Origin: Cladocopium goreaui
Lineage: Eukaryota > Sar > Dinophyceae > Suessiales > Symbiodiniaceae
Direction: 5' to 3'
Length of the DNA: 64,000 nucleotides
Assembly: GCA_947184155.2 (NCBI GenBank)
Contig: CAMXCT020001846.1
Span: 498,021-562,020 of the forward strand
The position numbers were made by a program, and so were the translations under genes. Shown here piece after piece: positions 3,801 through 64,000 of this stretch. Within the stretch, counting starts at the first letter, position 1. Every line of letters begins with the position of its first letter. The notes below the pieces were generated by a model that was not told the origin of the DNA, searched no databases, and saw only the letters and a program-made list of their open reading frames with translations.

Positions 3801-6800
3801 GGAACGACAGAAAGCAACTGACAGCTGCGCCGGCCGCGCCGCGCCCGTGGTCCCCGTAGCCACGGCTGAGGTGCAAAGATGCCAAGGCAAAAGTGGGGAA
3901 CCGAAGGTTCTGGGGATATGGTAATTGAATGTAATTGAATGATGTTTGGAATCTGGGGATTGAAGTGATTAAAAAGTTGGGACCTGCCAGGCTGCCAGAA
4001 GGAACCATGTTAGACTATATTAAATGACGTTAAAGTTACCACAATCTCACTGGACTATGTCACTGCTGGTGGCTTGGCCGTGTCCCAAACACCAGGGGAT
4101 TTTCCAGCGGCAGCAGGTGACATGAAGCGTGGTCACAAAGGAATCTGCTGGACTCAACGGGCGTCTTGGTTAGGGAAGATGGGATGTTAGGGATGGTGTG
4201 TAACAGCAGACCTGTTCCGAAGTCCGAATTTCTCCGAAAAAGATGAGGATCAGGATCTGAGGATCCCCATCCTCATCTATCCTCATCTATCCTGGCAGAG
4301 GAGTAACATCTCAACATGAATCCTGCCCTGGGAGCTGAGGAGCGATGCTGGAAGGCGCAGTGTCAGATCAATGGCTCCAATCGACAGTTCAAGGTGAAGC
4401 CCAAAAACTCGCGGCTCGGTCCGGCTCGGGAGACATGATGTTTTTTCTCGGGGTATGGGATATGTTGGGTGTTCCCGGCACATTTTGGGGTAAAGTTGCT
4501 ATAAGTTGCTGAGGGGAAGGCGTTAGAGCGAATTTCTGGCTAAACATGGAGGAGCTCTCAGTTGCTATGATTGATATCTGATATATCTGAGGGTGGCCAT
4601 GACAACCGAGCCCCATAGATGATGCTTGAGTTGATAATGTTGAGATTGGAGAAGCTGTTAGGGAGCTGCGATGAGTTGCGCATCACAGGCTTTGGGACAT
4701 GGGGAGTTGTTGCGTATGATCCACATCCGCACCTGCCCGCATGATGGATTCAACATCGCCCATATAAGATCAATGTGCATCCACATGGTTACGAGGTTAT
4801 GATATCTTATGGCCATTGATGTGGAGTGACCGAGGGGAATCTAAGGTACCGGATGCCCAAAGGATATAACCCTTCCCCACCATAGGTGCGCATTCAAGCC
4901 GGTTCAAAGAGCTTGTGGAACCCAGCTGTTGGTATTCTACCCCCGCGCTTCACAACAGTTCGACTGCATGTTTCGGCAAGTTGTGCTGCAATTTAATCCT
5001 TGATCAATGAAAGCACATGGGGTGGGATAACCCTACTTTTAAATTCTATAGTTCTATGATATTCTATATAATACGTGTGCATGAACATTGAGAAAATCAG
5101 ATGTCTTTTGAATCTGATTCTTTGATTATCACTAGTGCACTTGTGCTGATTCCAAGAATTGGATGACCCAAAATCCATTGAAAAATCCGGAAGATTCTAA
5201 TCTCAAGGACCATGAAAAGGCAGGTGCAGGTGTCCTGTGAGATTCCCAGCCCCGACATCGCTCCAGGTCAAACGAAGCTCTTGAGGCATCCTTCCAACGA
5301 GCCGAAGCTTGGCCGCGCTTGGGGATGAAAGGGTCGAAACCACGGCTGACTCCTTGATCATTGGAGGAAAAGGCCGGACAAAACCATAAAAATGGGTGCA
5401 AAGGATGCGCATTCTTAAAATGTGTTCAAAACATATCTGGTTGGTGGTTTGGAACATTTTTTATTTTTCCATATATTGGGAATCATAATCCCAACTGACT
5501 AATATTTTTCAGAGGGGTTGAAACCACCAACCAGCATATGTAAATCGATTGTTGCACAGCCTCAAGCATGTGCGCATGCTTCAGTTGACTATGTATACTC
5601 CTGAGACCACTAGTCTGAGACCACTAGAAATAGTGCTCGCGGTTTCATATTTTTTTCCATGGGCCGGATGAATTATTTTCAGGGGGGCACTCCATGTTTT
5701 TGGGTCACATTTTCCATGAAATAAACATTCATTGGATTGGTTTAAGGGAAACTCTTAACCGGAAACCATGGCAAATTTACCATTAAATATGGGAGGTTCC
5801 TGTAAAATTTACCTTAAACCAATCAGAACCAATCCAATGGACGAGGACTGGGGGTAGCCCCAATGAAACATAAATCAACCATCCATCCATCGGGAACCCC
5901 CTATGACTCAGCCCAGGTCACCTGGCTTCAGCTGCAACGCGCCGAACGCGCCGAACCAGCCGCGGCCGCGGAAGCGTCGAAGGCTGTGACGCGGCGGAAG
6001 GCGCGGAGGCAGCTGAGGAGCTTTGAATGCCCGGAGCCGGTGAAGCTTGGGTCAACATAGTCCTTACAAAAATTGGGAAATATGGCTTAGATATATAATG
6101 ATATCCACCATAGATATCCTGGTTTCTTGCAGATATTGGATCTAAGCTGGGATATTATCCAAAATGCATCAAGAAGTGGCGTCAACCAGCAAAATAATGG
6201 GTTTAAACATCAGCACACATGACATTTGCTCCAAGCCATTGCATTGCTTCTCACAAGGGGAGGGGCAGCGGTATTATTTGGGGTGGTGGTAGCAACCCTG
6301 ACAATGCTTGGATGTATATAAATTTAAGTCGAAGCCCCATTTTTACACTCAGAGGGGATTTCAGTACTGAATATTGCCATGATTTACCACCAAAAATGAT
6401 GTGTAACCAACAATTGTAGACGGGGATATACTGGGATACAGCAGGGCCAAAATCCTTGGTAATCAAACCTTTGGAAAGGATAGGAATTCAAGAATCGACA
6501 TGGAGGGGGGTGAACCAACAAAAAATGGAAGGAAACGTAACCGACTCGTGAGGAGAAGTTTAATTCGATCTTTGCCATTTTGATGGCGGCAAATGTTACT
6601 ATGTGTATACATATGCTAGCCAGCCACAGAAAAAAAACACATGATAACACATGGTATCTCAAATTGGCCATGTATCATCATGAATCATTGCTTTTTGATT
6701 GGGGTATAAGTCAACGATTCAAGCCTGTGGGACCGCAGATGGGCTGATATGTTCTTGTTTGCAAGTGTGAATCATGTGAATATTGACATCTAATTACTGG

Positions 6801-9800: not shown

Positions 9801-12572
9801 AGACAGAGGCGGATTTTCTGCAGTGTTTTTGGGGTGAAGTCAGACTATACTATCTACGAATCTACTCTTACCTTGGGAGGTGATGATAATCATGATAATA
9901 TTAATGATATCTATATATTCTATAGTCCCATCTTGTTTACGCATAATAAAAATGGTTACCCCGGCAAATGTTCGCATCCTTCCCAACTTGAGAATTCCTG
10001 TGCTCAGGATTGGCCACACACTTTGTCTAGTTTCGTGCGCGATGTACAGATGCATCAGATGCCGACCGGGACATGGGACCGCATCATTCCACTCGGCCGC
10101 GGAGAAGGATGGGCATAGAATCTGTCAAAACCTGTCTTGAACATCTGAATGTGTCCGAAAATAGGATAAAATAGGCATAGGCTACCGCCAATCTTGATGG
10201 ATGGTCATCAGTTTCTCATGAAAATTGCAATTTTGGGGGGTGAATTCATGTTAATTCGTGAAAATTTGCGGCAACCCGCAATAGATGCATCAGACTTCTC
10301 ACCATGGTTGTAAATAGCATGGCTTCCAGTAAATGTTTGCCCCCAAGCCAGTGGCAGTAGGATCATATGCGGATCATAGGTGATTGAGGTGCCAGTGGAA
10401 GTGGGAGGATGTGATTCGCCAGCCCGGGGGGTGTCCCATTTCGAAGCGCTCGACCGTGCTCCAATGGGGTGTCGCTCCGAGAAGCAACGAACCCGAACGA
10501 AACGCGACCAGATTCTCCGTTGAAGGTCAGGAGGCTCGGCGATACTGATTTGTACTGCAGGTGGTTTCAGACAAGCCGCGAAAACTTGGGAAAGCTTGGC
10601 TTCCCGGCTTCCCAAATACATACCAATTTGGGATTCATAACTTGAGAGCAAAACGGTTACGAACAGCTGTTGGATGGGGGGTGGTTTCGCATGGAATTGC
10701 CTTACAGCTGTAAGAACTGATACCTTTTAACATGCCATGTCAGGTAAAGGGGCCACAGTCGGCTAGCAACACGATACAAGAATGAATGTGTGTTTGCCTG
10801 AAAACAGAGCCCCCTTGACTGTGATGATCATCATCTTCCTTGTTTACATTGCAAAAAACTCAGGCATTCCCTTTTTGAAGGACAAACCCTTGAGTGAAGT
10901 CTGGCAGATTTTCAGAGACTGAACAGTGCCATTCTGGTGAGGACCATGGAAGACCCGTCGTACGACTGTCGTTTGATGTGTGTTTCCGTTTTTGGGCGGT
11001 GTTGTGCCATACAACATCTGATGCGCCTGCGGTGCATTTCTTAAGCGTTTTCTATATCTTGCATGAGTGCCAAACAACAGCTGTCACGCCATGGTGACAT
11101 GGTGGCTCTGGGCACTTTGGTTGTGAGGGGTTCCCTGATGGTAGTAGCTTCGCCATGGGTCGCTCGTCACGCGAATTGGTTCACAGTGGACTGTCCTTCC
11201 GCCGGGCCCGAAGGACCGTCCATGCTGCATGCCTTGGCTCCACCGGGCTCAAAAGATGGCAGTTTGAACTTCGGAAGCTGGTGGAACAAATCTGGGTCAA
11301 CCCACTGGTTAGATATGGTTAGAATATCTATAATTCTATATATAGATCTTAGTACTTTGATCTTTGCATATCTTTGCTATCAATGGTAAGATGTACTATG
11401 TACATCTATGTGCTAACATGTACTAACTTAATTAGTGACCTTGTACTAACCAGATACAACTTAGATTGTTTGACAGGTATCTAAGAACCATGAAAGTGGA
11501 ACACACCAAAACGGTCCAAAACGTATGAAAGCAACGGCAAAACGAGAATCAGAAAGCAACATTGAATGGTGCGGCCAGCATGCAAGATCACAAATGGTCC
11601 TGTTGAGGGGACGTACTTGTGCATTGAGTATGCCACACTTGCCGCCTACATATACAGCACACAAAGCTAGATCTTCTGTGTAATTGTTGATTGCCGATTG
11701 TAGATAGATGCTGTAATTAAGTAGACAGATGGATAGATGGATAGATGGATAGATGATGATAGATGGATAGATGGATAGATGGATAGATGGATAGATAGAT
11801 AGATGGATAGATAGATAGATAGATAGATAGGGGGAGAAGTGGAGAAAAGTCGTTATTTTTGCAGTAGAAACATAGAGAACAGAGATGCATACAGCTTTGC
11901 CTAGTGATGGTAGCTTCGCCCCAAAGATGCGTCCCTTGCTTGTGCCATCCGCTCCGAACAATGCCGGCCGCAAGACACGGTGTTGGTCCGGTTGTAAAGG
12001 GGGCAGCCTGCGCAGCCACAGATCCGCCAACTTGACCCATGCGAGAATCCTGAATGATTCCGACTCCCGTAACATTGGCAACAGAAACTCTTCTACTTTG
12101 AAAGGTATGTTATAAAATGTAATATAATATATATATATATGCGTGTTACCTATATATATATATGTATATGTGTGTGTGTTTGTTATATATATATACGTAT
12201 ATGTGATTATATATGTATGTGTGTATGTATGTGATGTAATGTAATGTTTTGTTATGTAATCTAATGTTATGTTATGTTATGGAATGTGTGTAATGTATGT
12301 AATGTATGTAGTGTATGCAATGTATGTAATGCATGTATATGTGTATGTAATGTAAAGTAATGTATGTAATGTTACGGTATGGTATGGTATGTTATGTATG
12401 TATGTACTGTATGCAATGTATATATATATATATATATAATGTATGTAATGCAATGCAATGCAACGCAATGCAGTGCAATGCAATGCAATGCAATGCAATG
12501 CAATGTATGTTAGGTTATGTTATCTTATGTTATGTTTATGTTTATGTTATGTTATGTTATGGTATGGTATGG

Positions 12573-12605
<33 letters not shown>

Positions 12606-13126
12606 TATGTATGTTATGTATGTTATGTATAATGTATGTAATGTATGTAATGTAATGTATGTATGTATGTATGTATGTAATGTATGTATGTATGTATGTA
12701 ATGTAATGTATGTAATGTATGTAATGTATGTAATGTATGTAATATGTATGTAATGTATGTAATGTATGTAATGTATGTAATATGTATGTATGTATGTATG
12801 TAATGTATGTAATGTATGTATGTATGTAATGTATGTATGTATGTATGTAATGTATGGTATGTATGTATGTATGGTATGTATGTATGTATATGTATGGTAT
12901 GTGTATGTATGTATGTATGTATGGTATGTATGTATGTATGTATGTATGTATGTATGTATGTATGTATGTATGGTATGTATGTATGTATATGTAATGTATG
13001 TATGTATGTATGTATGGATGTAATGTATGTATGGTATGTAATGTATGTAATGTATGTATGTAATGTATGTAATGTATGTATGTATGTATGTATGTATGTA
13101 TGTATGTATGTATGTATGTATGTATG

Positions 13127-13157
<31 letters not shown>

Positions 13158-13494
13158 TGTATGTATGTAATGTATGTATGTAATGTATGTATGTAATGTA
13201 TGTATGTTATGTATGTTATGTATGTTATGTTATGTATGTTATGTATGTTATGTTATGTATGTAATGTTATGTAATGTTATGTAATGTAATGTTATGTAAT
13301 GTAATGTAATGTAATGTAATGGAATGGAATGGAATGGAATGTAATGTAATGTAATGTACGTAATGTAATGTAATGTAATGCATTGGAATGCAATGCAATG
13401 CAATGCAATTTAATGCAATGCAATGGAATGTTATGTTATGTTGTGTTATGTTATGTATGTATGTATGTATGTGTGTGCGTGTGATTATATATAT

Positions 13495-22400: not shown

Positions 22401-25400
22401 GCTATGCGCCGTCGCATCAAGGAATCTGTGGGCCTTGTACAACACCTTGGATCGGGTCTTGGCCAAGGCGTCGATGGGATATAATTGGCCGATTTGGAGA
22501 ATTTTTCATTGTGATCAGATTGTGAATCTATGGTGAATCTATGGTGAATCTATGGTGAATCTATGGTGAATCTATGGTTAATAATGGTTAATAATGGTGA
22601 ATCTATGGATAATATATGATATATCTGGGTAAATTTCATCACGACCTCACTGCGACCGAACCCTGGAATCATGGTTTATGTTAGGGAAATCATCCCAAAA
22701 TGGCCGAACTATTCAGGTTAGTGAATTATTATAATTTACCCAGATGATATGCGTTTATGTATGTTTATGTATGTTTATGTCAATCACGTTCAATCCTCAG
22801 CCGTTGATTTGTTGGTGTTGCGTGTTCTTTTCTCTAAGTGACTGGTTGAAGACCACTTAAAAGTATTAAAACTAGGTTTGGGGGTTGATTTTGGAGCAGC
22901 AATAGCCTGCATGGTTCTGGCTTCTAACGCACATGCATGGCATATCCAGAAACCCAGTCACCCTGGATTCGTCCAGATCTTGGGGTTGAGGCAAGTCTCC
23001 TCTTCTTTAAAAACATGTTGATCCATATTAGTTGGGCCTTTTTTCAAACAGAAGCATCATCTGGTTGGTGGTTTGGAACATTTGGATGATTTTTCCATAC
23101 TATATGGGATGTCATCCTTCCCATTGACGAACTCATATGTTTCAAGATGGTTATTGCACCACCAACCAGTCATTCACCCCGGGCTGTTATGGAAATCACT
23201 AGTTCAGGGCCCAATGTTTAATCCACCAAGGTAGACTTGAATTGCCGGGCTTTGCCCATCCCACAATCTGCACCATGATTTGATACAGTCAGCACTAGTC
23301 ACTTTTCTATCACATTAGAATCCCATCACATTCCCATGATAATCATGATATAATTCCCATTAAAACTCCATGAATCGAATCCATAGATCCATAATCATTT
23401 ATCCAAGCTATTGTTGATTTAATCACCTTCACAGTAATCACCATCAATCACCATGACAGTAATCACCAATAATCACCATTAATCCAGTAGAAATTATACT
23501 CCATTATCATCTATCATAATCCATTATAACCCATTATAATCATTTATAATCCAAAATAATCCATTGCTGGAGGGCATATGTCAGAATAAATCCCGTCATA
23601 TCCCCCATTGATAGTTAAGTTAAACCCCAATCATTCTCATCAATGCCATATCATATCCCATCATATTCCCGTTGAATACTATAATTATGGGATATACATC
23701 ATATTCCCACAATCATACTCCCATAGTCACATTCCCATCAATCAAAAGTCGAAAGTTAATACATCTAATGTGGTTGCCATAATTAGTCATTATATAATTA
23801 TTATTATTATATATATATATGTACATATTCCTGGTTGGTGGTTTGGAACATTTTTTATTTTCCATATATTGGGAATTTCATCCTCCCAACTGACGAACTC
23901 ATATTTTTCAGAGGGGTAGAAACATACCACCAACCAGATTATCATTAACCATCATTAATCACATATATATATATATTTATATTCCATATAAAATAACCAT
24001 TATTAACATTTATTAACCAGGTATATTAACCAGATTAAATCACCCAAAAAATCCTAAGACTTTGGGCACCTCAGTTTTCCCCATGAAATGGACCCATGAC
24101 ATTTGCAGGTCATGGGTGCCTCAACTTCGGGCGGCTCCACCTCCGGCTTCGCGGAGGCCGTTTTTCAGGGGACTTCGGGGCTTGACCAAAGGCAGCTGTG
24201 GGTTGACCAAGGTTTAGCAGGATTACCCTCTGGTAAACTAACATAGCTATTGAAAATGGCCATTTATAGTGGATTTACCTATTGAAAATGGTGATTTTCC
24301 ATAGTTATGTTAAATTACCAGAGGGTAAGTCTAATTGTAAGCTATTTTGGTGGTTTCGGAACCACTAAAAATATTGGGTGTTGATGAGGTTGAAGCATCA
24401 AAACCGTGGGGATAGCCCATTTTTATCAGTTTTTCACATAGCCATGTTATGCATGACCAATATTCGACGGCTGGTTTTGAAGCTTCCTCAAGTTCCAGCC
24501 AAATGGGATGATGTTCCCATCAACAGCGATCTGATTCCTACACAGCGACTGAGTCTATAAGGGACAAGCCAATCGTGATATGGCTATGGATCAATACCTA
24601 TAGATCCCAGCTATTTTGATGTGAACTACAGGGGTACAAGGTTTTGACACACTGCCATATTGAGAAAGAGAGACAGAGCATGAGATTCAACATCAAACAT
24701 CTGGAAAGGATACTGTATGTCAAGTGAAAGATGGTGCGATGTGCAGCCGCTTGCAGCCGCTTGCTGCCGAGAAACCGATGGATTTCCATGTAAATTTCAT
24801 TAAATTTGCTCAAATGGCAATCCATTGTTGATGATTATATAATCCTATTGTTGATCCCATTTTTCAATGAACTAAAATAGAAAACCTGGTTGGTGGTTTG
24901 GAACATTTTTTTTTCTCCATATATTGGGAATGTCATCATCCCAACTGACTAATATTTTTCAGAGGGGTAGGTCAACCACCAACCAGAAACCTTTTTATAA
25001 AGTTTATCCTGTTGATGAATCCAGCATGCTTCTGAAACGGTTGGTGAAACTGGCGCTTGTTCACCTCCAAGTCGGCCAGGTCTATGAGTCAGCAGTTTTG
25101 TGGACGGTGCCACCCAAGGTTTGGGGCGGTTGGGTGGTTGGGAATTTTTCGTTGGCTGAATGGGTATGGCTATATGACATGATATAACATAATATATAAC
25201 AATATATAACAATATATAACATATTAAAGCCATGACTTTTTTGCACTCAGATATAGTGATATATAGTGGTATCAGACGTGGTATATGAGTCGTATATTCT
25301 CATGCCATGGCATATCCGGTTTTTGAACATCATTCCCACTGAGACAAGGGGTCACCAGGCTCCAGGTGGAATCAGATGGGTCACCCCAATTACGGTTACG

Positions 25401-28400: not shown

Positions 28401-31400
28401 AAAACAGCATTTTTCATCATGAAATCACCCATTCGAATCCCACATCGCTTCCCTCCGCTGCAGAACTGCCAGACCTGCGCGACGCGGCCGTGCAGCTGTC
28501 AACCGTGGCCACGTTTTCGGTGATGCCTTTGCTGCCGCTGAAGCAACCAGAGACGGTGCAGAAATTGGGAAATCTTTGGTCAGAATACCACCGGGCAAAC
28601 TAACTTTGCTGGGGGAAATCACCATTTTAATGATTTGAATGGGAAAATCTTCTATAAATAGTAAAAATCTATTAGTAAACAACAAAACCAGTAATCTATA
28701 GTAAATAACAACCCTTTTTATACAGCCACAATCTACTAATGTGGGTACAACAATGCCATTTTCGCCACCCATTGTTTTTTTTTCCACCTTTTTTTGATGG
28801 GGTATCCTCTGGGTAAAACTGATGATTTTCCGTAGCTTTTTATTAGTTTACCAGAGTGTAATCGATGAGAAAAAATCACAGAAAATGTATGAAAATGTAA
28901 CATTTAACCACTTACAGTAATTACTACCAGTTATTACCGGAGAGTTATTTATGAACAAAAAATGTAACACTGGCAATTAATAACCGGCAATATCTTATAA
29001 GGGGTTTAACTTTGTGATTGCCAACTTTGTGTGTGTTTTTTTAAAGTAGCAACACTAGTAAGGTTGCCCGATTTTGTCATAAATAGTTGCTATATGCTAT
29101 CAGAATGCGGGCGGTTCTATTATTGCTTTACTAGCACTATATAATGTAAATTGGTAATTTGGTATTTTTGCCGGGGACTTACGATTTGGTGATGATCAAT
29201 TGATGTTTTTGTTCAGTCTTAAGTTGGTATTGGTATATAAGTAGTTCTGATTTATCGGTGTTATTTCGTCGTGTTGTGTCAGAAGTGTAATTTTTGCAAA
29301 TACTTGGTAAATGGATGTAAATGTTATTATTAGGTATAAACATGGCAATGTAACACGATAACAGTAAATGATGATACCCATTACATTGGGATAACTTGGT
29401 GGTTACACAGTTTCGCAACACTGGCAATGCTGTAATAAAATGTATTTTTATTGGGATGCAATCATATAATGTGAGAAGCATGTAATTATAATCTAGTAAT
29501 GAGATGGTAATTGTTGATTTGGACAATTGATGTGGTAAACCCAATGATAACCCCAACTCTAGCATAAATGGGTGGTATGCCCCAGATGAACATCAATGGG
29601 TGGCATAAACCATCCTCAATTCATAGGTTTATTGCTGGGTTTGCCACATTATTTCACGAAGCAAAATGTGTTGGGTAAGTAGCAAGATGGTGCACCGTGG
29701 CGTTTTTTTTTTATTACGACTTATTAAGTATATAAGCACTTAACTACCAACGAAGGGGTGCTGAACAAGCAACAACTTTATATATATATATATATATCAG
29801 CAAATAAGATATATATTGCAGCAAATAATTGGCAAACACTGGTGATTTGAGGTGGCTAAATGGACATTTCATGGCAAACATCGGTGAACATGGGTGATTT
29901 CATGAAAAAAAAAAGTGTATTGAACAAACCAGCAAAGATTGGCATTCTGAGTTAACGACTGGCCGGCAAAGATGTTCAAACATGCGCATTCAACTCGCAG
30001 GAATATTTAACTCGCAAAAATGGCCCTTGGAATTGATCCAGTCAAAATCAAAATGTGTAATATCCCATTAATCAACGGTTTACATCGTAACTTGATTTGC
30101 CACAACATTTTGGAGTGGGACCTGAGTCGCTATGCCATAAAGAAGCAAACCGGCTCCAGGCAGGGACGCAGTGTAGTTTATTAAGTGAGAGGGAAAATGT
30201 AGGGACACATGGATAGATGGATAAGCAGATAGATGGTGTGAGATAAGTTGTTTTTTAAGCTAAGTAGTGTGCATATATATATAATATACACATGTATATA
30301 TATATACATGGAGAGAGACAGACAGAGAGAGAGAGAGAGAAATGCATTGTCATACAGCATGTCACACTTAAAAAGCTAAGCTGCGCTTTACATTTTGTTT
30401 CTCAAAAAGCTGCAAGAGTCATGCTCATCACCCCAGGTGCTGAAATGGGCTCTGTTTGTCTTCGGCCTGGTAATGGAGCACCACTTGTTTTGTGACTTCA
30501 AGCTGGGCACAGGTCAGGAAGATGTCACCAAGCAACTCAAATGGGAAGATCTCACCTGGTTCGATTTTTTTGACATCCCCCCCAGGCGGTGGAAATTCAA
30601 AATTTGACACGCATGCCATGATATGTTTCAGGTGTCCCTCCATTTGTCTACACACAGCAACCAGAACACATTTCCCACTTCTAAATAGCCAGTTAAAATC
30701 ATCATCACCATGATCATTGGGTTGATCAAAAGGGACATTTGCAGGCAACTAGCAGATCCTGTTTCTTTTAATCATGACAGCCTTATTTGGATATTAATAT
30801 AATATATATATATATGTATATATATATAGGTACCATTACTAGTCCCCTCGATGGATAATCACTAAGAACCCCTAGACTAGTTAGATGTTGCAAGCATGCT
30901 TTGATCATATGGCTATAGATGAAAATCTATGAAATTGCCATCTGACTGGGGGAGGAACCATCCAGCTATACTTGCTATGACTAAGAGTACCATTAGTAGC
31001 TTTGATCCAGAACTCCAGAAGCATATGAAGGGACCAAGTTTCATCATGAAATCTATGGGAACTCAAAAATCCGAAGCCTTCCGAGGCTCCGACCCAGCAG
31101 TCGTTTCGGCTGGTTGCTGTTGGCCTTGGCTGGGCTGGGAGTCTACCGCGATGCAGGCGGTGGCGAAGGGCTTCCGGAACCTTGGGGGTTGGGGTAGATG
31201 ATGGTGCAATGCTGGTTCTTGTTCCCCACCTGCCAGGTGAGGGTTGTTAGATTTTATGTCAGTTGCCTCCTCCTGCCTCCTCCTGCCTCCTCCTGCCTCC
31301 TCCTGCCTCCTCCTGCCTCCTCCTGCCTCCTCCTGCCTCCTCCTGCCTCCTCCTGCCTCCTCCTCCTCGTCCTCCTTGTCATCCTTGTCGTCCTTGTCGT

Positions 31401-34400
31401 CCTCGTCGTCCTCGTCGTCCTCGTCGTCCTCGTCGTCCTCGTCCAACTGCGACCCGCGATCCACAGTGTTCCCTGCCGGACCTCAACCACGACCATCCAC
31501 GCCCAGTGTTCCCTGCCGGACCTCAACCGCGACCATCCCCGCCCAGTGTTCCCTGCCGGACCTCAACCACGACCATCCACGCCCAGTGTTCCCTGCCGGA
31601 CCTCAACCGCGAGTATCCATGCCAAGTGTTCCCTGCCGGACCTCAACCACGACCATCCACGCCCAGTGTTCCCTGCCGGACCTCAACCGCGAGTATCCAC
31701 GCCAAGTGTTCCCTGCCGGACCTCATGTAGGAAGATATGGGACAAAGAATGTGCAGAAGAAAAGTTAGAAAGAATGTCAGAAAGAATGTCAGAAGATATG
31801 CCAGAAGATATGCCAGAAGATATGCCAGATAGAATGCCAGATAATATGCCAGAAGATATGCCAGATAGAATGCCAGATAGAATGCCAGAAGATTTGCCAG
31901 ATAGAATGCCAGAAAATATGCCAGAAGATATGCCAGATAGATATGTCAGAAGATATGCCAGAAGATATGCCAGAAGATATGCCAGAAGATATGTCAGAAT
32001 ATATGCCAGAAGATATGTCAGATAGAATGCCAGAAGATATGTCAGAATATATGCCAGAAGATATGCCAGATAGAATGCCAGATTGCCAGATATGCCAGAT
32101 AGAATGCCAGAAGATTTGCCAGATCATATGCCAGAAGATATGCCAGATAGAATGCCAAATAGAATGTCAGAAGATATGTCAGATAGATTGCCAGAAGATG
32201 TGCCAGTAAGAAAATGTATAAATGTCATGGTGGGGATCACACGAAGTAAAGTAATTTTTTGAGTCACCCTTTCCTCCATGTCAAAGCATCAAGCATTCAG
32301 TCTGCCATGATTTGTGCAAAAAAATAGCCCTGGTATGCCCTGGCTAAGCGTGTCCCAATCGCTGTCCCAATCTGCCATGAAGTCGTGCTTTCGAGGTGGG
32401 CACGAGCTGCTGTTTCGTGGCATGGAATTTCTGCCGCTACTTTTGACCTCGGACTTTTGTGCTGTGCTCGTACTTTGGCCCCTCGGTGAGTCGTCAAGGA
32501 GTCAGACGGAGGGCTGGATGAAGTGCCATGACCGTGATGGAATATACTGGTTGGTGGTTTAGCTATTGGATGGTTATTAATATCTGGTTAATAGTGATGG
32601 TTAATAGATGTTAATAGTGGTTAATAGGGTATAAACCAACAACAATGGGAATATGATGATTATATACTGGTTGGTGGTTTGGAACATTAGGATTATTGTC
32701 CCATATATTGGGAATTTCATCATCCCAACTGACGAACTCCATCATTTTTCAGACGGGTAGGTCAACCACCAACCAGTATTATTATTAACCATCATTAACC
32801 ATATATATATATATCCATACATTAACCATTATTAACCAGGTATATTAACCAGATTAAATCACCAAACAATGAGATAGTGCTGTTTGATGAAATTTTTCAT
32901 GGAGCGACATGCCCGGAGCCACACATCTGATCATGACCGACCGTGATTTGGCAAGTGCTAACAATGGACAGTGGCAGACTATGATAGGCCAAAACCATCG
33001 AAAACCCTAACAGAATATATCAGTACATATATCAGGGATAATGACATATCAGGCATCATGGATATGTCATGGATATGTCATGGATAGTATTTGAGCATCA
33101 GGATGTGAATCGGCTGTTCAAAAAAGCCATCCCATCCGCTTGGATGGACTCCTGGCCGTGAGTGGCGACTCGATTCTTCAAGGAAAAAAACACAATAGTA
33201 TACCAGTACCCTCTGGTAAACTAACATAGCTATTGAAAATGGCCATTTATAGTGGATTTTCCCATTGAAAATGGTGATTTTCCATAGCTATGTTAAATTA
33301 CCAGAGGGTAATGGAAATGCAGTGTGCCCTCCGGTCATTTCACAGTTTGCTATTGAACATGGTGATTTAGTTCGTGGGTTTACCTACAAAAAATGGTGGT
33401 TTTCCATAGCTATGTTAGTTCACCAGAGGGTATGTATATTATACCCTCCAGGAAATTAACACCCTGCCAGATAGTCCAGATAGGGGTTGGAAGATTTGTT
33501 CCCACTACTGTAAACATTGGTTATTTTCGGGGGCTATGTTACTTTACCAGAGGGTAACAACAAAGCTTTCCCTCCCACCCCCCAAACAAATAAGAACTTG
33601 AACATTTTGAATGGAAGTATCGCATAGCACTTGGATATATCTCAACATGGTGCTAAGCGAAACACACCGAGTTGGGCCAAGCGAACAGGTATTTCTGGTC
33701 GATTTTTCGGCTTCTGCCTGAGAAGTCCGGGAAGCAAGAGTGACAGGTCGTGATTCAGTGATGCACCCACTTGGATCAAGTCTTTATCGTGAATCGCCAT
33801 GGCCAAAGACCGCCAGCGTCACGTAGCGTGAAAGAAATTGAGGTGAGAACCACGTGACTATGAGTGAGGGATATATATATATAAGGATTATATAATAATG
33901 ATTAATAGACAACTGATGTTTATTTGTTTATTTTTGTTTATTTATACTTGCCAGTATGCAGTTGTACTGATATATAATCATATATAATCTACATAATCAT
34001 ATACAGTGATCTGCATCAGATGTCCAGAATTCAGAACAGGCCAAAAAACAGCTTAACCTATTAGGTCACCCTTTGGCCACCTGGAAGAAACCTATATAAT
34101 TAATTATAATTATTAATACCTGGTCTTTTTGAATCGAAATGAAGCGTTTCATTCCGCTGTTGATTCACCAGGGAGACAGACACCACGCGAAACGGACGAA
34201 ACGGAAAATAACGGCGCAAAGTTGTTCACCCCGCAACTTGGCACCTAATATTGGCCCAAGCCTATGGGCTGTCAGAGCTTAAGGGGGGCAGATAGCTGGG
34301 CGCTCCCTGGCCTCCATGTTCCTTGGCAAAAAAGCTGGGGGATGTTCAAAAGCATGTGGGGCAGTGAGCTCCCCTTTTTTGTTTTGTTCAGTCTTGACTC

Positions 34401-36219: not shown

Positions 36220-39200
36220 ATGGACGAGGAAGGACAGGAGTTGCTGGACTCTTCCGGCGCCGCGGTTCCGGTTCCGACACGTCGTCGACTTCGCTGCCGC
36301 GTCAACGGAGGGGCGCTGGCGTTGGCGGCTGGGCTGACCGGGGCTGAGCCATAGCTATAGCCGGTATGACAACAGTTTGCTAGGAAAACCAGGGCCCGCG
36401 AAAGTAGATAATTTACTGGGTTGTTAAAAAAAAACAGAAAACATTGTGTTTTTAAGGGTGCATAATCACTATAAAATTGGAACCCATGATGTCAAGAAAA
36501 CCCTAGGTTTAAGGTTTGTTAAGGAAATCCAGACATTTGGGGTGGTAAAGACGGGCTCGACGGAATGTTAGAGTACTTAATTTTATAGTGTTTGAAGGGT
36601 TTTGGGGTTAAACGATGGTTAAGTGATGGCCTCTACAAACTTGATATTTTTCATTTTATAGAGGTAAGCCCTCCCCAGGAGGGTCATGGGTTCCCATTTT
36701 ATAGAGGACCCTGTTGGGGGGATGTACCCCGGCGGTTTATCTCTATAAAACTGGGACCCATGACGTTCCCACACTCAAAACAAGGGGTTTTCATAACTAT
36801 GTACGATTACCAGAGGGTAATCTTACATGCAAAAATTGAGATGTGTGAGTGTCTATACCGACGTATGCCTATATAATTATGATTAATTATGTATGTACAT
36901 TTGAATTTGCGCATGCAGACAGGTGCATGCATGATATGATAAGCGTGCTATGATCTGGTATCATTTGATATACTATGACAATCTGACATGATATAAGATA
37001 TTTGAAGACAATGTGTGCATATACATCACATCTCTTCCTCCCCCCTCTCTCTCTCTGTAGACATGTGTGTACATCTGTGCCTTTTAAAGATAGGTAGGTC
37101 AATACTTGATGCTCCACAATGATTTGGCGTCAACTGAAACCACTCTTGGGGTGTCCATGAGTTAGACGAATGGAATTCAACTGGTTGAAGCTGTCAACTC
37201 AGATGGCAGTGGTGTCCAAATTTGCTGCTTACCCTCTGGACGCCCTAGCATCCCAAGCAAACAAAAAATGCTGATTGTTGAATATCACGTTCCCCCCTTG
37301 AAATGGCTACTGGTTGGTGGTTTGGAACATTTTTTAGTTTCCATAGTATGTGGGATAATCCTTCCCATTGACTAATATGTTTCAAGATGGTTAAAACCAC
37401 CAACCAGACAATATCTGCGGGGCCCCAGGGGCCACAAATTACTTCTGCGGCCCAAGGTTGGCTTAGTGACTTTGGCCTCAGCAGTGTTTGTCACCTATCG
37501 GGCATGGACAAGGCTGGGGCGAGCACGTGGCTGTTGGAAGAGGGTTTCAAATGATCTTGATGGATTCTGTATGATCCTGCACTTCAAGAATACTTTCTGT
37601 ACAAGTTATTTATCACACATTCCGTGGAATTCGTGTAGATATTTGTAGATCATCTTATTATCACGGATGTTGATGGTTTCTTAATTCCAAAATCTTCCAG
37701 CTTGCTTTGCAAGCTCAGTCTCTGTTTGCACCGGGTAGCTCCTACTGGCCGTAGGCGCAGCAGTGCGTTGACGGATGCAGTGGCGTGTTATTCAGCTAGC
37801 GAGCAACGCTTGAAGTTTGGCTTGTCGGAAATTCCTCCTGGGGCGTGTCCTCTGAAACCAGGCGCGGCTCTTGGACTTCGCTGGGGATATACGGTAAGCA
37901 AATACATAAGAATTATGGATATTCACAGGATGTTTTGGCGGAAAGCGTTTAGCCAATCAAACATGTTGAGTAAATCTGTTGAAAGCTGGGGATATACCGG
38001 AAACGTAAATATGACCAATAAAACAATACAGGGCCAACTTACTTGATGGATAGTTTACCACTATCATCCACGATCTAATCGTTTAGCATAAATGGGGATA
38101 TATTATACATATATCATATATTTACATAATTATTCATGTATAAAAGCCATTTTTTGTTTCTAGAGTATCTAAGATTTGCAATGTTAGGCAACCAGAGATG
38201 ATCATGATCAAAGACGGGGATTGAGTCAATCCCAGAAAAAGGGGCTCCTAGCTGTCCTAGCTGTCCTAGCTTCAATCAACAAAAGATGAGGATTTTACTT
38301 TTAACCAACCAAATGGAGAAGTTACCAACCGAAATGGGATTGGATTCAACGTATCTCCCATAAAACTATGAATTCACATGCTGAAAACATAGTGATCTCT
38401 ACAGATAAGGTGAAATTCTATAAGAATTTCTATGGTTGATGAGGGCTTTGCAGACCTCCTCCTTCACGGATTTTACTGTACATACGAGGCCGATCGATCC
38501 TAGGAATAGATTTTGTGAAGTGGTTTGCTTCACCCCCATGTCACAGCAGTGTCATCGCCTTGGTTTTCTGGTTCATCAAATTGCCTATGCACGATTTTCT
38601 CAACATGTTTTTCACATGTACGCATGTATGCGTATGTATACGACATGTGTGCATTTTGTATGCGACAAATGTTTACACATGTAAATATCTATGCTATATA
38701 TAAAATATATATTGATTTACATATCATATGTCCATAGATACATCCCAGGATTCATGGGAATTTCTGCCTAAGCCACGCTGAGCCGTTTGAGCCGCTCAGG
38801 CTTTTGCCGCGGTGCAGACGACAAGTTCTTTGGCCGGTGGACTCCATGGACAACGAGGATTTTTTTGTGGAGTTCACCATGGATGTTACCCTCTGGTTAT
38901 GTCAAAATAGCTATTGAAAATGGCCATTTATAGTGGATTTTCCCATTAAAAATGGTGATTTTCCATAGTTATGTGAAAGTTTACCAGAGGGTAGATCATT
39001 AAGCAATCTATGATCATTGGATTGGATTAAGGGAAAATCTTAACCGGAAACCATGGGAAATTTACCATTAAATATGGGGGGGGTCCTGTAAATTTTCCCT
39101 TAAACCAACCCAGTGATATGAAATTCTATGAAATTCTATGAAATTCTATGAATCTAGATAACCAAATTTATGTTTTGATGTTTGATTTACTGTATTACTA

Positions 39201-63395: not shown

Positions 63396-64000
63396 AGAAA
63401 TTACTTTACTTCGTGTGATCCCCACCATGACATTTATACATTTTCTTACTGGCAAATCTTCTGGCATTCTATCTGACATATCTTCTGGCATTCTATCTGG
63501 CAAATCTTCTGGCATTCTATCTGGCATATCTTCTGGCATTCTATCTGGCAAATCTTCTGGCATATCTTCTGGCATTCTATCTGACATATCTTCCGGCATT
63601 CTATCTGGCATATCTTCTGGCATTCTATCTGACATATCTTCTGGCATTCTATCTGACATTCCATCTGGCATATCTTCTGGCATTCTATCTGGCCGTTGAA
63701 GTCTGGCAGTGCCCACTGGGATCTGGAGCTCGCGGTTGAGGTCCGGCAGTGCCCACTGGGATCTGGAGCTCGCGGTTGAGGTCCGGCAGTGCCCACTGCG
63801 ACCTGGAAGTCGCAGTTGAGGTCCGGCAGTGCCCACTGCGATCTGCAACTCGCGGTTGAGGTCCGGCAGTGCCCACTGGGATCTGGAGCTCGCGATGGAG
63901 GTCCGGCTGTGCCCACTGGGATCTGGACTGCGAGGAGGAGGCAGCGGGTGAGGCGGCGGGTGAGGAGGCGGAGGAGGCAGAGGAGGCGGAGGAGGCGGAG
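63396..64000 (-). repeat. Composite repeat, copy 2, inverted and cut by the window end
   Basis: Read on the minus strand it starts at the window end with a cctcctg-type tract, then six 40-base units (period positions 63701, 63741, 63781, 63821, 63861, 63901), then the 12-base MPED/MPDR repeat (63455-63695), then the tail. The tail and last repeat units (63396-63470) match 32180-32255 almost base for base. Similarity stops at a GA-rich tract. Confidence 0.9.

Follow-up and report, generated by a model that had tools for sequence, protein, structure and literature searches.

The stretch of DNA analyzed here, referred to as the window, comprises 64,000 nt of the genome of the dinoflagellate Cladocopium goreaui (assembly GCA_947184155.2; 1.17 Gb in 6,202 contigs) and is part of contig CAMXCT020001846.1 (C1846, positions 498,021 to 562,020, forward strand). 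It carries two copies of a composite, repeat-rich block. Copy 1 is located on the plus strand at 31223..32254, its start being 31223 if the first base is T and 31224 if it is C, and was delimited by fixed ends that are common to other copies in differing flanks. The motif TTGTT (31219..31223, plus strand), which corresponds to TNNTT, forms its left border. The block begins with a head of 39 bases (31224..31262) shared with other copies, containing a 5' inverted repeat, (T)CCCCACC, and a hairpin, CCCCACCTGCCAGGTGAGGG (31224-31243). A microsatellite-like CCTCCTG/TCGTCC tract follows (31263..31449), in which Tandem Repeats Finder detected 10-base CCTCCTG units at 31264-31373. Further to the right lie an array of 40-base units (31464..31725; 6.6 copies with 91% matches, anchors spaced exactly 40) and an array of 12-base units (31731..32205; reported by the same program as 12/24-base units at 31767-32212). 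The tail (32206..32254) carries the 3' copy of the inverted repeat, GGTGGGGA, 18 nt from the end (32229-32236), and terminates in GTAA at 32254, where a T-rich flank follows.

Copy 2 is orientated on the minus strand and lies within the window from its tail to the microsatellite (63401..64000). It extends 56 bases beyond the window end, its head starting at position 562076 of the contig, which is 64056 in window numbering. According to Tandem Repeats Finder, copy 2 contains 12/24-base units at 63449..63693 and 40-base units of another kind at 63695..63927 (5.8 copies, 91% matches). The 25-nt tail GTGGGGATCACACGAAGTAAAGTAA was present at 32230-32254 (plus strand) and 63401-63425 (minus strand) without any mismatch, and shuffled windows gave 0 matches. 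At the gathering score, Rfam models had no match anywhere in the window.

An earlier note on this DNA had described four modules in the same order at both places, a nearly identical tail and 40-base units differing in number and kind, all of which were recovered by Tandem Repeats Finder and tail matching. The modules also lay where it had placed them, but the 39-base head had been overlooked, and copy 1 ends at 32254 while copy 2 reaches from 63401 past the window end. The inverted arrangement of the pair, 31 kb apart, is real but without special meaning, these being two among thousands of scattered copies.

Within the genome the 25-nt tail occurred 5,198 times with up to two mismatches, and exact copies of the 33-nt head numbered 4,468; the reversed-pattern controls gave 0 in both cases. 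At about 1 kb per copy the family would take up near 0.4% of the assembly. The proposal of the earlier note that the block is moved or copied as one piece was borne out by these thousands of copies and by the fixed ends that sampled copies have in unrelated flanks. A lack of further copies or an assembly error had been named there as grounds for giving up the idea, and the 5,198 tails and unrelated flanks speak against both.

To describe the family, 58 loci were sampled in addition to the window: the 8 nearest to the window tail, the first 30 exact tails by contig order and 20 chosen ones. The latter comprised the second window copy, five loci with headless tails that were looked at again and the 14 next in the list. 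Copies were included if a head was found within 5 kb of the tail and the flank on each side measured 60 bases or more. After removal of duplicates, such as L022 with the same flanks as L017, 52 distinct copies remained. Three headless tails were noted, namely C21:225762 (L042), the first tail in L041 and the minus-strand tail in L036. L042 keeps the tract and both arrays, and the L036 locus stops too early for its minus-strand tail. Among the 52 tails that were first resolved to short copies, 49 had kept both ends. The length was 608-1,341 bp in 49 of the 52 copies, the outliers being L044 (1,623 bp), L040 (2,892 bp) and L043 (4,029 bp). Inside the last one (C25:240000-249500) an insert of ~3 kb is nested, which has long inverted ends, CACAGGGCCCACGACCCCCCCCAGCAAAACCCCCCC, and by its looks is another DNA transposon.

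From left to right the parts were the inverted repeat and 5' hairpin, the CCTCCTG tract, the arrays of 40-base and of 12-base units and the fixed tail. The first 21 nt were identical in all 52 copies; the 45-nt head majority was matched by 38 and the 60-nt tail majority by 26 of them. The 8-bp inverted repeat TCCCCACC opens the element at nt 1 and recurs 18 nt from the 3' end at GTAA, or 20 nt if both T's are included. The 5' hairpin folded on the minus strand with -6.1 kcal/mol (z -2.56), and 1 of 200 shuffles was equally good.

All 52 copies were inserted at TNNT^T, and 29 of them at TTTT^T. On the left, T was found at -5, -2 and -1 in every copy, at -4 in 40 and at -3 in 34; on the right, the first base was T in 52/52 and the first two were TT in 51/52. 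Genome-wide, TNNTT precedes 4,347 heads, a number obtained with a 29-nt head pattern and hence no strict fraction of the 4,468. Among the first 100 of the 33-nt heads listed, 98 were also present among the heads preceded by TNNTT. Target duplications, for which the earlier note had suggested a search, were absent as a general feature of the 52 copies when compared with re-paired flanks: abutting direct repeats of at least 5 bases occurred in 9 copies versus 10.0 +/- 1.8 after re-pairing. Shared words of at least 6 bases were present in 7/52 copies, several of which lie in repetitive DNA.

Empty sites were searched by comparing the joined flanks of the 52 copies with all fetched sequence. Junction-spanning matches were obtained for L011, L013, L033, L045, L046 and L051, and the alignments of L011 and L013 were inspected. 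Here, related repeats with 74-86% similarity cross the site without the element, but they are too diverged for counting T's.

The 40-base units, classified by the highest count per copy, were of the kind CAGTGTTCCC in 42/52 copies and CAGTGCGCACC in 9/52; a third kind, CAGTGGGCAC, had the highest count in one copy, the second one of the window. Neighbouring anchors of the 12-base array were exactly 12 bases apart in 1,163 of 1,559 steps and 24 or 36 apart in 241 (copies up to 1.7 kb). Together with the fixed order of the blocks, these steps point to an order that is inherited with the element and to unit numbers that change locally. A protein encoded by the 12-base array was considered as well; since a stop-free 12-base unit stays open anyway, its open frame is no evidence.

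The tail was also found at the 3' end of a long element on contig C580. On one strand this element carries an open reading frame (ORF) matching the protease domain UCH (6.6e-6) and an ORF matching the helicase domain AAA_19 (9.5e-6), both over the cut-off. Additionally, it contains motifs which we take to be HUH-, two-tyrosine- and Walker-like. The assignment of this family, here referred to as the partner, to the Rep/helicase type is based on domain matches together with these motifs. The C580 copy, the one copy scanned, gave no Pfam match to an endonuclease in any of its four ORF stretches, and a comparison of the helicase ORF with solved structures yielded 0 matches at E 0.01.

The 3' end of the C580 element is identical to the window tail in 34 of 35 nt and is followed by TTTT. 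Its UCH-ORF stretch is ~98% identical in copies on contigs C269 and C990. At the same offset, 13 of 15 further partner copies had a tail that could be recognised in the expected orientation, 11 with up to two mismatches of 25 and two with four; L070 and L078 had no tail in the fetched stretch. The alignment to C580 ended 2-7 bases beyond the tail in 11 of the 13, 5 bases before it in L065 and 18 past it in L075. TT came next in 12 of the 13, with the exception of L065, whose terminus is altered. Some partner copies had nearly identical 3' ends, with up to 99.9% identity over 831 bp, which suggests that they may have moved recently. The palindrome ACCTGCCAGGT of the short-element head was also present in the C580 element, ~120 nt inside its 3' end.

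Two further repeats were observed around the partner. Its coding region contains a tandem array of ~21 bases (CTTGCTCCCTGGTGGAGCGGT; L061:5726-6175 and L060:2500-2990). Directly past the partner tail of L066 (C990:386300-387900) lies a related short family, starting with TTTTCCTACCTGCCAGGTGAGGGATCTC and ending with GTGGGAATCACACGCAACAAAGTAA followed by TT.

The outlier L040 contains an inverted piece of a partner gene. This piece was found with 95-100% identity at no fewer than 25 places, L040 and L064 included, after 150 of 194 candidates had been scored. Open frames of 1,119-1,879 aa were reported by the search tool at 15 of these 25 places, with a stop inside the match in 2 of the 15. L040 and L064 occupy separate sites with different right flanks, L064 having no head in the fetched stretch. 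Since both carry the same captured piece with identical break points and the same 158-bp gap relative to the partner, a single capture took place, the product of which then spread. Gene capture has been described for such elements (PMC4067079, in the part at hand). The 158-bp gap was also considered as a spliced intron, but its borders are not GT-AG by eye and the reading frame in C580 stays open at this place.

Based on these data the block is a short, gene-less mobile element and very probably a non-autonomous, Helitron2-like rolling-circle transposon mobilised by the Rep/helicase family of C580. The short element would carry just the DNA ends needed for recognition by the Rep/helicase, that is the left inverted repeat with its hairpin and the right subterminal repeat with the 18-nt terminus, and the tandem arrays between them would be passengers. 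The enzyme most likely comes from the long Rep/helicase family with the nearly identical 3' end. It would nick the element at its ends and transfer one peeled-off strand to a TNNT^T site, usually leaving the target unduplicated. The arrays would travel within the copied strand, their unit number shifting by local slippage or recombination. It seems doubtful, by contrast with the passenger role, that the 12- and 40-base units benefit the element, for instance by attracting the Rep/helicase through repeated binding sites or by acting as a spacer while the strand is peeled off, and were kept in order for this reason. Such a role would explain why there are thousands of array-carrying copies versus about two dozen Rep/helicase loci, the latter number being a lower bound.

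Several observations weigh against this interpretation. The 5' end of the partner was not found in the fetched stretches, so that sharing is seen at the 3' end only. Helitron_like_N reached just E 0.0036 in an ORF stretch of the C580 element and the captured piece in L040 matched DUF6570 weakly (E 0.052), both below the cut-off. No hairpin was found after the 3' inverted repeat (z 0.81; 159 of 200 shuffles folded equally well). An inverted repeat of 8 was reached by 72 of 5,000 letter-shuffled pairs; taken alone, the 8-bp repeat is unlikely by chance to a modest degree only. Mixed-letter words shared within 20 bases of the ends had a mean of 3.12 versus 1.95 +/- 0.28 in re-paired flanks, and 11-base direct repeats were present in two of the 52 copies (L017 and L052). 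It is possible that a minority of copies has duplications, by analogy with the Chlamydomonas CRe elements, a minority of which has them (PMC3627910, in the part at hand). The inspected alignments of L011 and L013 contained no clean empty site. Furthermore, the sampled copies had been selected via their ends, and the conservation of the ends is thus inflated and partly built in.

A rolling-circle element moved by another Helitron family, which shares its tail with the C580 family by old common descent or by tail capture, is the alternative closest at hand and is improbable. It would fit the sharing at the 3' end only and the varied Helitron_like_N (PF14214) matches in the genome, which number at least 145, with open frames of up to 4,798 aa as given by the search tool. 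However, 34 of 35 nt are shared, and the tail forms the very end of the long elements, TT coming next in all but one of the 13. The same shared end, together with both ends being kept in 49/52, makes it very improbable that the block is an SVA-like retroposon on the opposite strand, in which the T's before CCCC would be a poly(A) tail and the RNA would have been copied by the machinery of long interspersed nuclear elements. The composite repeat structure and the T-runs of 5-8 ahead of the head in 29/52 copies are in favour of such a retroposon, but in the other 23 the run has just 2-3 T's, with a T at -5 and any base between, and a general target duplication is missing.

A cut-and-paste DNA transposon of the miniature inverted-repeat transposable element (MITE) type, with short degenerate terminal repeats, would likewise be short, non-coding and numerous, with an 8-bp inverted repeat and a T-rich target. 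Here, the inverted repeats are asymmetric, being 0 and 18 nt from the ends, and the end is shared with Rep/helicase elements; again, no general target duplication was seen, and we give this origin an equally small chance. That an assembly error or an ordinary segmental duplication of a single minisatellite block is responsible can practically be dismissed: its one favourable point is the presence of both window copies on one contig, and it is refuted by the unrelated flanks, with thousands of matches over many contigs also against it. An introner was also considered: the head contains AG|GTGAGG, but no clean acceptor was seen by eye at the right end.

The following comparisons draw on parts of the cited articles. 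Helitron2 elements have asymmetric inverted repeats of 8-15 bp, located 0-2 bp (5') and ~20-30 bp (3') from the ends, a 5' terminal hairpin in which the 5' repeat takes part and another hairpin after the 3' repeat, and they insert after T-rich TTTT without target duplication (PMC3627910). Like Helitron-1N1_CRe of Chlamydomonas, the family described here has asymmetric inverted repeats (8 bp, the 3' one at 18 nt being slightly short of the stated range), a 5' hairpin, a T-rich target and mostly no target duplication. It differs by its central tandem arrays, by other end sequences and by the 3' hairpin not being found (PMC3627910); because the latter is missing, we would not file the family as a strict Helitron2. 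FoHeli1/2 of Fusarium use the target TNAT^T, whose spacing equals that of TNNT^T. Like the present family, FoHeli3-5 have no 3' hairpin, and the FoHeli Rep/helicase is without endonuclease, none having been found here either; the end sequences differ, and the part of the article at hand mentions no tandem-repeat block for FoHeli (PMC5148889).

HINE/DINE-1 elements, including Cg_HINE of the oyster, are alike in the left inverted repeat with its complement, the microsatellite, the central tandem repeats, the right flank with a subterminal repeat and at least 2 T on each side (PMC4067079, PMC7492417). The units measure about 140-180 bases in Cg_HINE (PMC7492417) versus 40 and 12 here. Unlike in HINE (PMC4067079), no 3' palindrome is present and no endonuclease, which in Helentrons is fused to the Rep/helicase of the autonomous partner, was found; for the latter reason the family is no Helentron/HINE in the strict sense. 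A canonical Helitron (Helitron1: 5' TC, 3' CTRR, A/T site) was rejected on account of the T^T site and the GTAA 3' end, although 5' TC would be possible. The earlier note knew of no named element with this structure; the layout is, however, that of Helitron2/HINE-like elements.

A MITE-like interspersed repeat of ~110 bp with inverted ends (CTGGTTGGTGGTTT...AACCACCAACCAG) occurs in the window at 5430-5536, 23059-23169, 23831-23915, 24883-24989, 32667-32776 and 37310-37413 and also in many fetched loci; its copy in L013 carries an insertion of the element described here. A long simple array of TATG/TATGTAATG (>1.2 kb) is located at 12208-13469. Exact matches to the dinoflagellate spliced-leader motif numbered 176 in the genome and 0 in the reversed control, which marks the host as a dinoflagellate, one exact copy lying at C1846:567586, about 5.6 kb beyond the window end.

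Within the library searched, no paper was retrieved joining dinoflagellates with helentron or Helitron2 elements, and the term 'helitron' occurred 0 times in the main text of a review on dinoflagellate genomics, as far as the part at hand goes (PMC11453091). The family, with its central tandem repeats, is new for this lineage, the kind of element being already known. One rolling-circle transposon family would connect thousands of minisatellite blocks scattered over a dinoflagellate genome, and a likely source of its enzyme is indicated. With a TNNT^T target of FoHeli-like spacing and no endonuclease found in the partner, a choice of the target by Rep itself becomes testable.

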